DNA of 31,351 nt from a virus, in IMG/VR virus record IMGVR_UViG_3300037069_004336, positions 1-31,351 of that record, one strand, 5' to 3'. Made by a program: the position numbers and the translations under genes. Positions 2,607-31,351 of this stretch are shown in pieces. The notes beneath the pieces were generated by a model that was not told where the DNA came from, did no database searches, and was given only the letters and a program-made list of their open reading frames with translations. Positions within the stretch are counted from its first letter, which is position 1; each line of letters opens with the position of its first letter.

Positions 2607-3382
2607 TAAAATTGAATTAATGTGTTTGTTTCAGCTTCAATTGTAAAACGTTGAATATTCTTCATCGTTGGATCTGCTGGAAGTGAAAAAGATTTTATAA
2701 TACAACTAGCTGTGTTTATTCCAGTTTTATTTGAAATCCAATTATTTAATAAGTTAAATTCTTTATTGCGAGTACACATCGTTACAAAATCTGTAACGTC
2801 AGGTCTATTTTGATCAGGCACCAATGGATCATCACCAACAAATTTTGCTATAAATAAACCTTCAATTTGAAGTTTATAACTTGATGAGTTAACAAATTCT
2901 TGAATATTTCCTTGGTAGCCAATTGGCATTGATTCAACGTAATTATTTGTTTGTGAAATAGAAATTGTTGCGATAGGAATATTCAAAGTAATTGTTTCTT
3001 GATCGTTGATCGTTGAATCAAAGAAATTCCTTAATCTATAAGAAGAAGTTAAAATCAAATTTGGAATTATTGCCTTATTAAAATAACCATCAACATTTGT
3101 TGTGGGATTATTTGAAATATTTAAAGCAATATTCTTTCCATCATTATTTATTTGGTCTTGAATTATTTTACCAGAGTTTCCATTTCTATTATAAGGCAAA
3201 AATCTTGCAGCAAACTGTTGTGCAATAGCTGCATAAAATGTTGCATTTAATACAGTATTATTTACAAGTTGTGGTTGCAAAACTGCATTAATTAAATCCT
3301 GATTCAAATCACCGTGAGTAAACTCAATTATTGGTTTGAAATGATATGGATTTGGAATATTATTTAAGTTAAGATTAGGCAT
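2606..3382 (-). CDS. Tail protein between tape measure and hub (DUF6046-like)
   Basis: 258 residues from the ATG at 3382, whose codons overlap the tape-measure stop by 8 bases. An upstream TTG at 3409 is also in frame but lies deeper inside the tape-measure gene, so the ATG is preferred. The centre is beta-rich (I-P-I-A-T-I-S-I-S-Q, then S-S-Y-K-L-Q-I-E-G-L), and the C-terminus repeats this pattern after a helical segment. This layout resembles the DUF6046 proteins of Bacteroidota phages. The gene order (tape measure, this, hub) suggests a tail-tube initiator or baseplate-tube connector, as held by DNA-circulation-type proteins in Mu-like phages. This is inferred from position and pattern. 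Confidence 0.5.
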   Translation of the reverse strand: MPNLNLNNIPNPYHFKPIIEFTHGDLNQDLINAVLQPQLVNNTVLNATFYAAIAQQFAARFLPYNRNGNSGKIIQDQINNDGKNIALNISNNPTTNVDGYFNKAIIPNLILTSSYRLRNFFDSTINDQETITLNIPIATISISQTNNYVESMPIGYQGNIQEFVNSSSYKLQIEGLFIAKFVGDDPLVPDQNRPDVTDFVTMCTRNKEFNLLNNWISNKTGINTASCIIKSFSLPADPTMKNIQRFTIEAETNTLIQF

Positions 3383-5093
3383 ATTGTGAGAAGTCTTCGG
3401 ACACACCAATCAATAATTCAAGCATTTGTTGCTTAACTGTTTGTTGATCTCCCATATTTGATATATTTTGATTTTGAATGTTTTGTAATGCACCCAAATT
3501 AACAATAATATTTTTTACTTCACCAGTTTGTGAACTCTTAACATTATTGTCCATAGCTGCTCCAGCTATTGATGATACAGATTTATTACTTGTAGAAGTT
3601 TCGTCCACAACACCACCTTCAGCAGTTCCTAAAGCATTTGAATCGGATTCAACTTTTATTGGGTTCTTTGTGACTTCCAATAATCGATCACCAAGCTTAT
3701 TTAATGTATCATTGAATAATAAAAACCCAACAACTTTTGCTATAACACCAAATATTTTTTTAGTTAAATCCCAAACAAAACCAAGTGTAGAAGTAAGCCA
3801 TCCAAATACACGTTTAAGTGAATCAAATACTCCTTCTCCAAAAATAGCTGACCATATTTCATTTATCGCTTCGCCAACAGAAGAAACAATATCCCAAACA
3901 GTTTTGAATGCGTCAATTAATTGAGGCAAAATTTTATTTACAACTTCCATAATAGGTGTTGCAATTTTCCAAAACGCAAGTTCAAGTTTTTTACCCCATT
4001 CAGAAATCATTTTCATTATTGGGATAATTCCTCTAGTTGCTTTAGATTGTTCTTTTGTTATTTCAAGATTTATATTTCCTTTTTTTGCAACTTCATCATA
4101 TTTCTGTGCCATCTCATCAAGAGATTTTGTATTGGTAGAGATTGCCAAAAGCCCTTTTTGACCCAAGTCTTCAGCGGCACTACCTCCGAGGCCTGAATTT
4201 AATTCTTGTGCAACTTTAGGATCAATTTTATCAACTTTGGAGAATACTTCTTTAAAAGCTTCTTCAGCGGTTTTTGATCCATTTAATATTTCTTTTTGAA
4301 ATTTATCTGCATTAATACCAGCTTTACCTAAAGCAATTTTTGTTGCATCTGGTAATTCTTGTTTTATTCTTGTAGTAAATTCTTTCATCGCATCAACTGA
4401 TTTATTTGAGAATAAACCATTCTCAGAAGATACAGATAAAGTTTTTATTAATGACTCAGCATTTCCTCCAGCTCCTTTTATCTGAGAAGAAAACTCTTTT
4501 ATATCATCAAGATTTAATTTTCCATTTGTTGCTGTCAAGCCTTTTGAGACAAGCTCAGCTGCTTCTGCACCTTTTATACCAAACTCATTTACTAATACGT
4601 TTGTAGCGTCTGTAAGAGCCTTAGGATCGATACCATCAAATGTTTTTGATATACCACGAACAATATCTGTTGTTGCTTTTAAATCATCGTTTGATTTTGC
4701 AAATCTTTGAACTTCAACATCAACTTGTTTAATATCTTCAGCTGTTTTATACATTGCCGTTCCAAAAGCTACAGCAGCAGCAGTAGCCGCACCAATAGGA
4801 TTTGTTAAAGCTCCAATCGCTGGACCAACTCCAGGAATATCAGCAGCAAGGCCAGAGATATTTCCTTTTAAATCTTTGAATGCATTACCAACAGAGGCTT
4901 TAAATTTATTTGCTGTTGCTATAGCTTTGTCAGCACCTTTTGTTGCAATATTAATTACAGTTGGGTTATTATTAATTGCCTTCAATTTATCTTGAAGGAT
5001 TTCAATAATATTACCAGCAGATTTTACCGAAGGTTTTACCTCGGCTTCAATCCCCAAATTAAAAATTACTGACTGTTTACTATTAGATGGCAT
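3375..5093 (-). CDS. Tail tape measure protein
   Basis: 572 residues. It is Ala/Lys/Gly-rich with long amphipathic helices. A hydrophobic Gly/Ala segment lies at about 88-114 (G-P-A-I-G-A-L-T-N-P-I-G), followed by a tape-measure core with repeated K-G-A/E-A-A patches and more hydrophobic helices around 350-450. Tape measure proteins fix tail length and help deliver DNA. The size is small for this role, which implies a short tail. ATG at 5093 lies inside the end of the frameshifted chaperone gene (11-base overlap), the standard arrangement chaperone G, G-T, tape measure. Position and composition make this call firm. Confidence 0.85.
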   Translation of the reverse strand: MPSNSKQSVIFNLGIEAEVKPSVKSAGNIIEILQDKLKAINNNPTVINIATKGADKAIATANKFKASVGNAFKDLKGNISGLAADIPGVGPAIGALTNPIGAATAAAVAFGTAMYKTAEDIKQVDVEVQRFAKSNDDLKATTDIVRGISKTFDGIDPKALTDATNVLVNEFGIKGAEAAELVSKGLTATNGKLNLDDIKEFSSQIKGAGGNAESLIKTLSVSSENGLFSNKSVDAMKEFTTRIKQELPDATKIALGKAGINADKFQKEILNGSKTAEEAFKEVFSKVDKIDPKVAQELNSGLGGSAAEDLGQKGLLAISTNTKSLDEMAQKYDEVAKKGNINLEITKEQSKATRGIIPIMKMISEWGKKLELAFWKIATPIMEVVNKILPQLIDAFKTVWDIVSSVGEAINEIWSAIFGEGVFDSLKRVFGWLTSTLGFVWDLTKKIFGVIAKVVGFLLFNDTLNKLGDRLLEVTKNPIKVESDSNALGTAEGGVVDETSTSNKSVSSIAGAAMDNNVKSSQTGEVKNIIVNLGALQNIQNQNISNMGDQQTVKQQMLELLIGVSEDFSQYA

Positions 5094-5609
5094 TTGGTTC
5101 TGACTTTAATTTATTGTATGCTGAAGACTTTAATTCTAAAACGTATTGCAACTTTGCCCATTCACGACAAAGCTCGTCGTAACTCATACTTCTCAATTCT
5201 GAGGGCTGAATATGAAAGTAGTACTGTAAAAGCGCTTCTACTTTGCTTACGTCGTCTTTTTCGTGAATTTCAGCAGATACTAGTTTTTTTTTAAACTAGC
5301 ATTCTTAAGTTCGATCAAAGCAATGCATTGAATTGATGCTGCAATACTTAAAGCTTCATCAGTACGTATGTCCATATCGCCTCCAATCCAACATTCAGCC
5401 AAGATAATCTCACCTGCTGTGATGAAGTCTGGTTTTGAACCATCAAATGGAGAAATTAAAGGAAATACTGTTTTAAAAGTTTTTTTATCAATCTTGCAAA
5501 GATATCCTTTTTTGCCTTCAACCTCAATTGTATATTCTGCGCCAATTGGAACGATTTCTTTAATTTCTTCTTTTGGTGCATTAATTGTCACCGTTTTTTG
5601 CTTTGCCAT
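5083..5609 (-). CDS. Tail assembly chaperone G-T fusion made by -1 ribosomal frameshift
   Basis: The chaperone frame ends in TTA AAA AAA AAC TAG. Slipping back one base on A-AAA-AAC bypasses the stop and reads 66 more codons to a TAA at 5085-5083, making a 175-residue fusion. The extension has the lambda gpT-like look: a Q-Y-Y-F-H-I-Q-P-S-E stretch, then M-S-Y-D-E-L-C-R-E-W, then a charged helix. In the -1 frame a TAG lies just before the A run, and no ATG, GTG or TTG start lies between it and the extension, so the conserved-looking part can only be reached by frameshifting. It sits directly before the tape measure and overlaps its ATG. Mechanism known from lambda G/GT; frameshift efficiency unknown. 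Confidence 0.85.
5280..5609 (-). CDS. Tail assembly chaperone G-like (unshifted product)
   Basis: 109 residues ending at the TAG right after the slippery run. It starts with a Lys/Glu-rich stretch (K-T-V-T-I-N-A-P-K-E-E) and continues with short beta strands and a helical C-terminus (S-I-A-A-S-I-Q-C-I-A-L-I). Lambda gpG-type chaperones bind the tape measure and recruit tube subunits. The longer G-T form shares these residues. The ATG lies 121 bases downstream of the tube gene, with a strong terminator hairpin between them, so this gene is probably expressed at a lower level than the tube and sheath. The role is assigned from position and the frameshift. Confidence 0.8.
   Translation of the reverse strand: MAKQKTVTINAPKEEIKEIVPIGAEYTIEVEGKKGYLCKIDKKTFKTVFPLISPFDGSKPDFITAGEIILAECWIGGDMDIRTDEALSIAASIQCIALIELKNASLKKN
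5283..5289 (-). promoter_or_regulatory. Slippery heptamer A-AAA-AAC for -1 frameshifting
   Basis: The heptamer lies in the correct phase (A AAA AAC) within a run of nine A followed by C. It is one codon before the zero-frame stop TAG. A-AAA-AAC fits the X-XXY-YYZ rule for simultaneous tRNA slippage. Confidence 0.85.
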
Positions 5610-5730: not shown

Positions 5731-6198
5731 CTAGATTGCAGAAGCTCCCCAGTTAATGTTACCTATTGAAATAGGTAGTTCAACGATAATACTTGTATCT
5801 CCTTGATTCATTCCACGAATATTTTGTGTGAAGTTTACGAATTGAAGTTCGTCAACAACAACAAATTGTCCGTTTTCAGAAGGTATGTAAGATACAATGA
5901 TTGAAATTCCATCCAAGTCCAAAATTGAACCAGTGCTTGATCCAGCTTGTCTTGCAGCTGCTTGAAGTTTTAACACTTCAGACATACGAACAGAAATACT
6001 TCCTTGGAATTCTACGTTTCCAGCTCCTTTGGAGATTGGTAAACGACCATAACCATATAAGTTATCGATTGTTTGTGTTTCTTGATAGTTAACAGATAGA
6101 ATGTCTTTAATAACAATTCCATTTATTGTCAAAACAACATTCCCCCAAGAATGGGCGAAGTTGTTTATGATTGGCATAGTTTGTGGGCCTCTAGGCAT
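5731..6198 (-). CDS. Tail tube protein
   Basis: 155 residues. It is beta-rich with a central loop region and has the pattern of short myovirus tube proteins. Near residues 22-36 a V-L-T-I-N-G-I-V-I-K-D strand pair occurs, then Y-G-Y-G-R-L-P-I-S-K-G, a loop like the metal/turn region of XkdM and FII-type tubes, then a strand-rich C-terminus with S-I-I-V-E-L-P-I-S-I. Tube subunits stack as hexamers inside the sheath around the tape measure. It lies directly after the sheath gene and before the chaperones, which is the classic order. Highly expressed structural gene; a terminator follows. Confidence 0.75.
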   Translation of the reverse strand: MPRGPQTMPIINNFAHSWGNVVLTINGIVIKDILSVNYQETQTIDNLYGYGRLPISKGAGNVEFQGSISVRMSEVLKLQAAARQAGSSTGSILDLDGISIIVSYIPSENGQFVVVDELQFVNFTQNIRGMNQGDTSIIVELPISIGNINWGASAI

Positions 6199-6224: not shown

Positions 6225-7388
6225 TTATGTAGTAAGACTGAAACCTAAGTTAACTTGAATTTCACGAGCCACACCAACTGGAACGACTTTAACACCAATC
6301 ACCAATTTAGATGTGCTTAACACATTTTGAGTAGGATCGATTGAAACACTGAAGCCAGATAATTCACCAGCACCAACCATTGAATTCAATGCACCATTTA
6401 CAAGTGTTTTGAAATATTGAATTGTACCAATTGCAATTTGTCCAGTAGCTGCATCAACATTCAAAGGAGAATTGATAGATGGCAACAAAGCAGTTCTGAT
6501 TTGTCTTGAACATTTTTGAATTGTTCTATTATTCTCGATTGTACTGAAGTCACTAGTTACAAGATCAGCAGTCCATCCATAATTAAACCAGGTACCAGAA
6601 GCTCCAACCAATTGTCTACAGAATATGTAACCAAAGGAGTCCAGCGTGTTTAATAAAGTTGTTGATTTGTCTGTATACAAAGATCCATCGATAAAACCAA
6701 CAGTAGAATAACCAGTTTGAACCAAGTTAAAGGCTGCAATCCAACCGATAGATTCGTTAACAGCAGCTTTTGAAACAATACCAAGAGTTGTTCCCAAGGT
6801 ACCAACCAAAGTTGCACCAGAAGCTCTTAATACTACTGGTCTTGAACCATCAGTAAAATCATCACCAATTACATAAGATACTTTAGGACAAGTTAATTGA
6901 TGTATATCAATCAATGTCTCTACAGTAGCTCCAGAAGCTAGTCTAGATGAATAAATAGTTTGAAGAGGTGCATATTCCAACTCAGCTTGATCAGCTTGTC
7001 CTTGGATAGCTGAAATGCTTGTAGATACATATCTCTTATCAGCATCAAAAATACCAACTTGTTTAACTGTCCCGTTAGAAAAGTTTTTCAAATCAAGTAA
7101 TTCTGAATAAGTAGTTGTTCCTGTTTTTACGACAGAAATATAAAGTGAAGATTGCGAATTTCTGAAGTACTCATCGATGTGGTATTTCAAAACTTGTCCA
7201 CCAGTGAGAGTATCACCCGTGATTCCAAGAACGCTTGAAGAGTCATCTGGAGAAAATAATTGATACTTACCAGCTGACAACGTTGTTGCTGTGGAGTAAA
7301 AAATTATCCCAGATATACCGTCATCGCTAACTTGAGGTCTTGCAAGACCGCCATTAGAAATTACGACGTTAACATTAGGTAGTGCCAT
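6225..7388 (-). CDS. Contractile tail sheath protein (DUF2586-like)
   Basis: 387 residues. It begins with a hydrophobic strand (N-V-N-V-V-I-S-N-G-G-L) and has an ordered run of sheath-type elements: D-G-I-S-G-I-I-F-Y-S near 23, a Y-H-I-D-E-Y-F-R-N helix near 69, and a C-terminal strand ending V-N-L-G-F-S. This matches short DUF2586-type sheath proteins of Bacteroidota phages, which lack the large surface domains of T4 gp18. It defines the virion as myovirus-type. The stop lies 26 bases upstream of the tube ATG, and the two genes are likely transcribed together. The sheath gene begins just after the terminator that follows the capsid gene, so it may have its own promoter; none is recognised. 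Confidence 0.8.
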   Translation of the reverse strand: MALPNVNVVISNGGLARPQVSDDGISGIIFYSTATTLSAGKYQLFSPDDSSSVLGITGDTLTGGQVLKYHIDEYFRNSQSSLYISVVKTGTTTYSELLDLKNFSNGTVKQVGIFDADKRYVSTSISAIQGQADQAELEYAPLQTIYSSRLASGATVETLIDIHQLTCPKVSYVIGDDFTDGSRPVVLRASGATLVGTLGTTLGIVSKAAVNESIGWIAAFNLVQTGYSTVGFIDGSLYTDKSTTLLNTLDSFGYIFCRQLVGASGTWFNYGWTADLVTSDFSTIENNRTIQKCSRQIRTALLPSINSPLNVDAATGQIAIGTIQYFKTLVNGALNSMVGAGELSGFSVSIDPTQNVLSTSKLVIGVKVVPVGVAREIQVNLGFSLTT

Positions 7389-31161: not shown

Positions 31162-31351
31162 TTATTGCAATGTACCTGTACCAGTTGTTGCTCCAGCTCC
31201 AGCAGGAACCGCAACTTGAACTGTTATACCTGGATTAACTTCTGCACTTAATATTGCCTGAGCAATGATTTGAGCCATCTGCTGAGAGTATAAGGTCTTT
31301 GCTTGTTCAGCATCAGTCTGAGTCAACATAGACTCTCCTAGAGCTTTTATT
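31162..31351 (-). CDS. Small tail/baseplate protein, continuation across the window end
   Basis: The frame enters from base 31351 and ends at a TAA at 31164-31162. The part beyond the overlap reads as a Val/Pro/Gly/Ala/Thr-rich C-terminus (I-T-V-Q-V-A-V-P-A-G-A-G). It is the same gene as bases 1-159 and joins to give 73 residues. The overlap includes its first 42 or so codons. Confidence 0.75.
   Translation of the reverse strand, partial: IKALGESMLTQTDAEQAKTLYSQQMAQIIAQAILSAEVNPGITVQVAVPAGAGATTGTGTLQ
31226..31351. repeat. 126-bp terminal overlap, right copy
   Basis: Identical to bases 2-127. It marks the join of the circular map and lies within the 73-aa gene. Confidence 0.95.

Follow-up and report, generated by a model that had tools for sequence, protein, structure and literature searches.

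A candidate -1 frameshift joining G and T into a tail chaperone of the G/GT type in a family of Bacteroidota phages

The tail assembly chaperones gpG and gpGT of phage lambda arise by a -1 frameshift (Xu, Hendrix and Duda, reviewed in PMC5009743). We analysed an IMG/VR virus record of 31,351 bases, taken at its full length and called the window below, on the minus strand of which a -1 ribosomal slip very probably joins a short gene, G, to an extension, T, in a tail chaperone frameshift of the lambda G/GT (or P2 E/E′) type; judging from sequence, we put this reading at roughly 93%. The mechanism is already known from these two phages, and what is new is its assignment to an unnamed, widespread family of Bacteroidota phages, phrog_19076. 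The assignment provides a likely function for this family, adds a missing T domain that is skipped by ORF callers, and supplies about 100 natural slip sites, a series for asking what makes Bacteroidota ribosomes shift frame.

G, the slip site and the T extension in the window

G lies between the tail tube and tape measure genes, the position expected of a tail chaperone of the G/GT type, within the gene order sheath, tube, G, T (in the -1 frame) and tape measure. The features are as follows.

6225..7388, minus strand: tail sheath, DUF2586 (PF10758, E=2.5e-44; phrog_907, tail sheath)
5731..6198, minus strand: tail tube-like protein (phrog_4579, tail protein, E=7e-13)
5280..5609, minus strand: G, putative tail assembly chaperone, zero-frame product of 109 aa (sequence; phrog_19076, E=4e-14; place between tube and tape measure)
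5296..5298, minus strand: TAG ahead of the slip site, shutting the -1 frame (sequence)
5284..5292, minus strand: A9 run, putative slip site, AAAAAAAAA on the minus strand (sequence)
5289..5295, minus strand: T_TTA_AAA, in-phase heptamer, third overlapping option (sequence)
5286..5292, minus strand: A_AAA_AAA, in-phase heptamer, most likely slip site (aligns with A_AAA_AAG in 43 relatives and A_AAA_AAA in 18 others)
5283..5289, minus strand: A_AAA_AAC, in-phase heptamer proposed by the initial annotation, adjoining the G stop (sequence; forced in locus L036, only heptamer in L010 and L013)
5083..5283, minus strand: T-like extension in the -1 frame, 66 codons (CTA 5283 to ATC 5088-5086) and stop TAA 5085-5083 (held-out T profile, E=1e-12; family alignment; AlphaFold2 three-helix model, pLDDT 82)
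3375..5093, minus strand: putative tape measure protein, 572 aa, its start overlapping the end of T by 11 nt (position and length; the homologous position is named 'tail tape measure' in FPSV-S1)

The 572-aa tape-measure-like ORF matched no family in PHROG and Pfam profile searches; baseplate-hub-like proteins are also encoded downstream of G-T. No tRNA genes were found in the window, and an Rfam search of it returned no match. With an exact 126-bp repeat at its two ends (positions 2-127 and 31226-31351), the record probably represents a complete genome that is circular or circularly permuted.

The 3′ end of G reads AGT TTA AAA AAA AAC TAG, the stop being TAG 5282-5280. The initial annotation had the 109-aa frame ending at an in-phase heptamer, which is correct, and had set this heptamer one codon before the TAG, which is not, as A_AAA_AAC directly adjoins the stop. 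The genes of the window hold 90 in-phase heptamers of the form X_XXY_YYZ (Y = A or T), only 3 of which end within 10 nt of their own stop, and all 3 overlap at the end of G (T_TTA_AAA, A_AAA_AAA and A_AAA_AAC). Downstream of TAG 5298-5296, the -1 frame is free of stops for 70 codons (5295..5086), 66 of them beyond the slip, and terminates inside the start of the tape measure gene (ATG at 5093). Both frames are thus open together over no more than TTTAAAAAAAAAC, which confines any shift to the A-run. The run is flanked by an inverted repeat, CTAGTTT / AAACTAG (5280-5299), which is probably a by-product of the TAG stops in both frames.

Whichever of the overlapping heptamers is used, the GT fusion read from the sequence has 175 aa; its residue 109 would be Asn via A_AAA_AAC and Lys via the others. 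The +1 frame offers no more than a 6-codon ORF, and a +1 slippage product would therefore be almost nil; of the two further events proposed earlier for the nine-A run, +1 slippage would thus add hardly anything, and transcriptional slippage is possible. We built a T profile from 104 loci that did not include the window; it picked out the -1 extension of the window at E=1e-12, the runner-up in the window scoring 0.63, and by this sequence measure the extension is more than chance. The description of the extension in the initial annotation, which gave no strand, holds on the minus strand: a coherent gpT-like sequence of 66 codons ending within the tape measure start, closed off upstream by a TAG, with no usable start codon between this TAG and the extension, and missing from the ORF list.

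Conservation of the -1 frame among relatives

Relatives of G were drawn from viral contigs, GTDB genomes and phage records, and removal of duplicates left 107 readable loci, the window included. A single-protein G search of viral contigs found none, and queries with alignments succeeded; a search with the tube protein gave two loci, one of which was inspected and carries no readable G region. Nearly all relatives are Bacteroidota phages and prophages, and the titles from the genome collection name Bacteroidota except for one Chlorobiaceae MAG. In 106 of the 107 loci, at least 40 open codons follow the G stop in the -1 frame; the +1 frame offers as many in 11 of 107. The alignment establishes that the T extensions are homologous across loci. 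Relatives lacking the slippery run and having two separate genes, which the initial annotation had named as a refutation of the frameshift, were looked for, and this refutation failed; instead, 106/107 keep the -1 extension. Together with the gene order and the conserved slip bases described below, these counts strongly support the proposal of a G-T tail chaperone made by a -1 shift.

The region between the upstream -1 stop and 12 codons beyond the G stop contains no ATG, GTG or TTG in 86 of 106 loci, which makes independent initiation of T unlikely and no general option. In the window, the first start candidates of the -1 frame are TTG 5196 and then ATG 5187, and the former already falls within the conserved T core. 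G thus carries an in-phase slippery site at its 3′ end and, beyond it, an open shifted continuation devoid of an independent start, as in the G/GT type. We consider it very unlikely, for these reasons, that T is a separate small gene with its own start, as which it is annotated in lotta8-1 (gp39); such a gene would also leave the conservation of slippery bases without a reason, even though the GenBank records of lotta8-1 and fF4 do annotate small, separate ORFs past G. These T-region fragments (lotta8-1 gp39, L002 3312-3440; fF4 QHJ72924.1, L105 5414-5557), recorded as hypothetical genes, are likely annotation artefacts of the frameshift.

Homopolymers of nine bases are error-prone and the window comes from an environmental virus collection, so that a sequencing or assembly error could be imagined, the real run being A10 and G-T one uninterrupted gene. 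This is extremely unlikely, given that the relatives, isolate phages and bacterial genomes among them, have the frame break too, mostly at runs of no more than 6-7 A. Nor is there any appreciable probability that T is a chance extension or a decaying remnant devoid of function: a single relative has a broken extension, against a T domain and synonymous slip bases that are conserved across a very diverged family. In that relative (L119), a further frame change breaks the T domain, which resumes in another frame; this suggests that the extension is decaying or that the MAG contains a sequence error.

Two further observations concern the margins of the family. In Meiothermus phage MMP7 (L106, ~5346), the +1/-2 frame, and not the -1 frame, leads into a T-length ORF past an XkdN-like gene, the junction reading CTC TAA with AGGAGG upstream; this outgroup may use another shift direction. 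The G proteins of lotta8-1 and FPSV-S1 (L002 and L003) have about 175-180 aa, longer than that of the window, and appear from their sequences to comprise two copies of the G domain (two match places per FPSV record, and the translations).

Slip-site classes and the probable origin of the shift

The slip position is fixed, mostly two codons upstream of the G stop, and the 106 loci fall into A_AAA_AAG (43), A_AAA_AAA (19, of which 7, the window included, continue with AAY), A_AAA_AAC alone (3), N_NNA_AAG only (32) and other sites (9). We compared the codons at this position with the expectation from each locus's own codon use. Where two Lys codons are present (63 loci), the preceding codon ends in A in 62, compared with 21.8 expected (log10 p of -34, a value that takes no account of kinship). 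AAA encodes the first Lys in all 63 (42.3 expected), and AAG encodes the second in 43 (20.7 expected). Loci with a single Lys (n=34) have A as the third base before it in 33 cases (15.2 expected), and this Lys is AAG in 32 (9.7 expected). A -1 slip site should leave its mark as selection on synonymous bases, and the slippery synonymous bases are indeed conserved. With the extension kept in 106/107 loci, this codon bias gives the family the joint conservation of slip site and extension expected of G/GT. Kinship among loci means that the p-values overstate independence; at least 27 changes of site class are required on the tree, and the fixed slip position is therefore not simply one inherited sequence.

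The usual site of the relatives, A_AAA_AAG, aligns with A_AAA_AAA at 5292-5286 in the window, one codon upstream of A_AAA_AAC at 5289-5283. From this alignment, A_AAA_AAA is the most likely slip heptamer of the window, and A_AAA_AAC possibly serves instead, being the sole usable heptamer in one relative (L036, ATT AAA AAA AAC TAA). The initial annotation had called A_AAA_AAC canonical; the heptamer is in phase and could function, but it is canonical for mammalian ribosomes and not for bacteria (PMC5009743), and the site of the relatives lies one codon earlier. Of the three A-rich heptamers, A_AAA_AAG is by far the most prone to shifting in E. coli, A_AAA_AAA and A_AAA_AAC being weak by comparison (PMC5009743).

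Several loci depart from the common sites. In the 32 loci with only A_AAG (L050, L055, L062, L054, L071, L089 and others; for instance CTG GTA AAG or TTG GAA AAG), the P-site tRNA, mostly Val or Glu, is unable to re-pair fully in the -1 frame. One clade (L098, L101, L130 and L133) has GAG GAA at the slip position, carries neither a standard heptamer nor A_AAG, and shows an SD-like AAGGAGG upstream. Replacement sites are found in L095 (GTT TTT TTG, i.e. T_TTT_TTG) and in Flavobacterium phage fF4 (L105; GGGAAAG, of the lambda type).

A downstream stimulatory fold, which the initial annotation had suggested looking for, was not detected in the window (z of -0.2 to +0.9 for 40-100 nt, and of -1.0 for a 50-nt stretch), and an SD-like upstream stimulator is absent there as well. 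Across the family, upstream SD-like sequences are weakly enriched (29 observed versus 21.1 expected), and downstream folding is slightly stronger than in the control stretch (mean z of -1.0 versus -0.39). Bacteroidota ribosomes use Shine-Dalgarno pairing differently from those of E. coli. Strong hairpins are predicted directly after the slip site in L010, L013, L036 and L100, the first three being the loci that have A_AAA_AAC only, a number (n=3) too small for a claim. Certain tailed phages are known to shift at low rates without stimulators (PMC5009743).

The fusion could also be made at the level of transcription: RNA polymerase might slip on the A9 run and add an A to some of the mRNA, yielding GT alone or together with ribosomal slippage. 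A-runs longer than 7 have been linked to transcriptional slippage (PMC3711429), and A9 is the only 9-nt A/T run of the window. Moreover, where the second Lys is AAA, the next codon begins with AA in 8 of 20 loci and so lengthens the run, versus 0 of 43 loci with AAG in that place (Fisher p=3e-5, kinship not considered). This association comes down to five independent contrasts on well-supported branches, a number that does not allow a test. In the family as a whole, however, a run of at least 8 A, as programmed transcriptional slippage would call for, is not kept: it occurs in only 13 of 106 loci, and the other 93 have shorter runs with the -1 geometry unchanged. In the AAG loci, it is the heptamer that is conserved and not the run length. 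The family mechanism is therefore best read as ribosomal, and we regard the polymerase as an unlikely source of GT, although it may contribute at the A9 of the window; ribosomal slippage on A_AAA_AAA and one added A in the mRNA would yield indistinguishable peptides.

As a more speculative extension of the ribosomal reading, which we hold to be rather doubtful, the -1 shift of this family may depend on neither a fixed heptamer nor a fixed stimulator, the near-constant elements being a Lys codon in the A site and the A that precedes it. Long A-runs, such as the A9 of the window with its three stacked heptamers, would then compensate for the loss of AAG, possibly with the help of RNA polymerase slippage.

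Protein families and comparison with known tail chaperones

All 51 G proteins tested match phrog_19076, the family to which the G of the window belongs (E=4e-14). Pfam gave no match for the window G and none above cut-off for T, and PHROG matches to the T part reached E=0.004 at best. P2 GpE (PF06528) is the one Pfam family that the window T touches, at an E of about 0.1 and 12.6 bits over 17 residues, short of the gathering cut-off of 23. The G model (pLDDT 89) has as its top Foldseek match among 350,542 PDB chains 2ob9, the HK97 tail assembly chaperone, at a weak E=1.0 and probability of 0.30; VIA-align superimposes the two at Z 3.3 and an rmsd of 6.2 over 73 residues, 5ir0 scoring higher (Z 4.4). 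This resemblance to 2ob9 is weak and may serve as a lead, not as proof. The helical T model returned no fold match at E <=0.001, all VIA rows having Z <5; the alignments used for structure modelling omit three rows from annotated-record loci. The T profile also matched the sequences of two solved structures, S100-A9 and CBFA2T1; we set these aside as apparently chance similarities between helices.

By analogy with lambda gpG/gpGT and P2 gpE/gpE+E′, we propose that most ribosomes would translate G and halt at TAG 5282-5280, and that a minority, with the Lys-Lys codons of TTA AAA AAA AAC in the P and A sites, would move back one base. The slipped ribosomes would bypass the stop in the -1 frame and add the 66-residue helical T, giving the 175-aa GT. 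G would form a coat on the tape measure, and GT, the minor form, would bring in tail tube subunits through its T domain; both G and GT would be absent from the finished virion.

We compared the locus with described groups and systems. phrog_19076 is the G protein itself, listed by PHROGs under 'unknown function'. The Winoviridae lotta8-1, FPSV-S1 and Peternella_1 share with the window the order sheath, tube, G, T and tape measure, and have an in-phase A_AAA_AAG with a -1 T extension; in contrast, their records either give the T region a gene of its own or leave it out. We found no description of a G/T frameshift in Winoviridae or Bacteroides phages in the open literature, an absence that is not proof. 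The P2 system, gpE/gpE+E′ (PF06528), differs in that the T match falls far below the Pfam cut-off, and resembles the window in its contractile tail and in its minor form extended by a -1 shift. Lambda gpG/gpGT shares no sequence family with the window proteins in the searches made, has the slip site G_GGA_AAG in place of the A-rich site found here, where no stimulator is visible, and contrasts with the contractile tail of the window phage. The likeness to lambda lies in the arrangement: a gene between tube and tape measure, a short zero-frame product, a -1 shift near the end of the gene and a C-terminal T domain.
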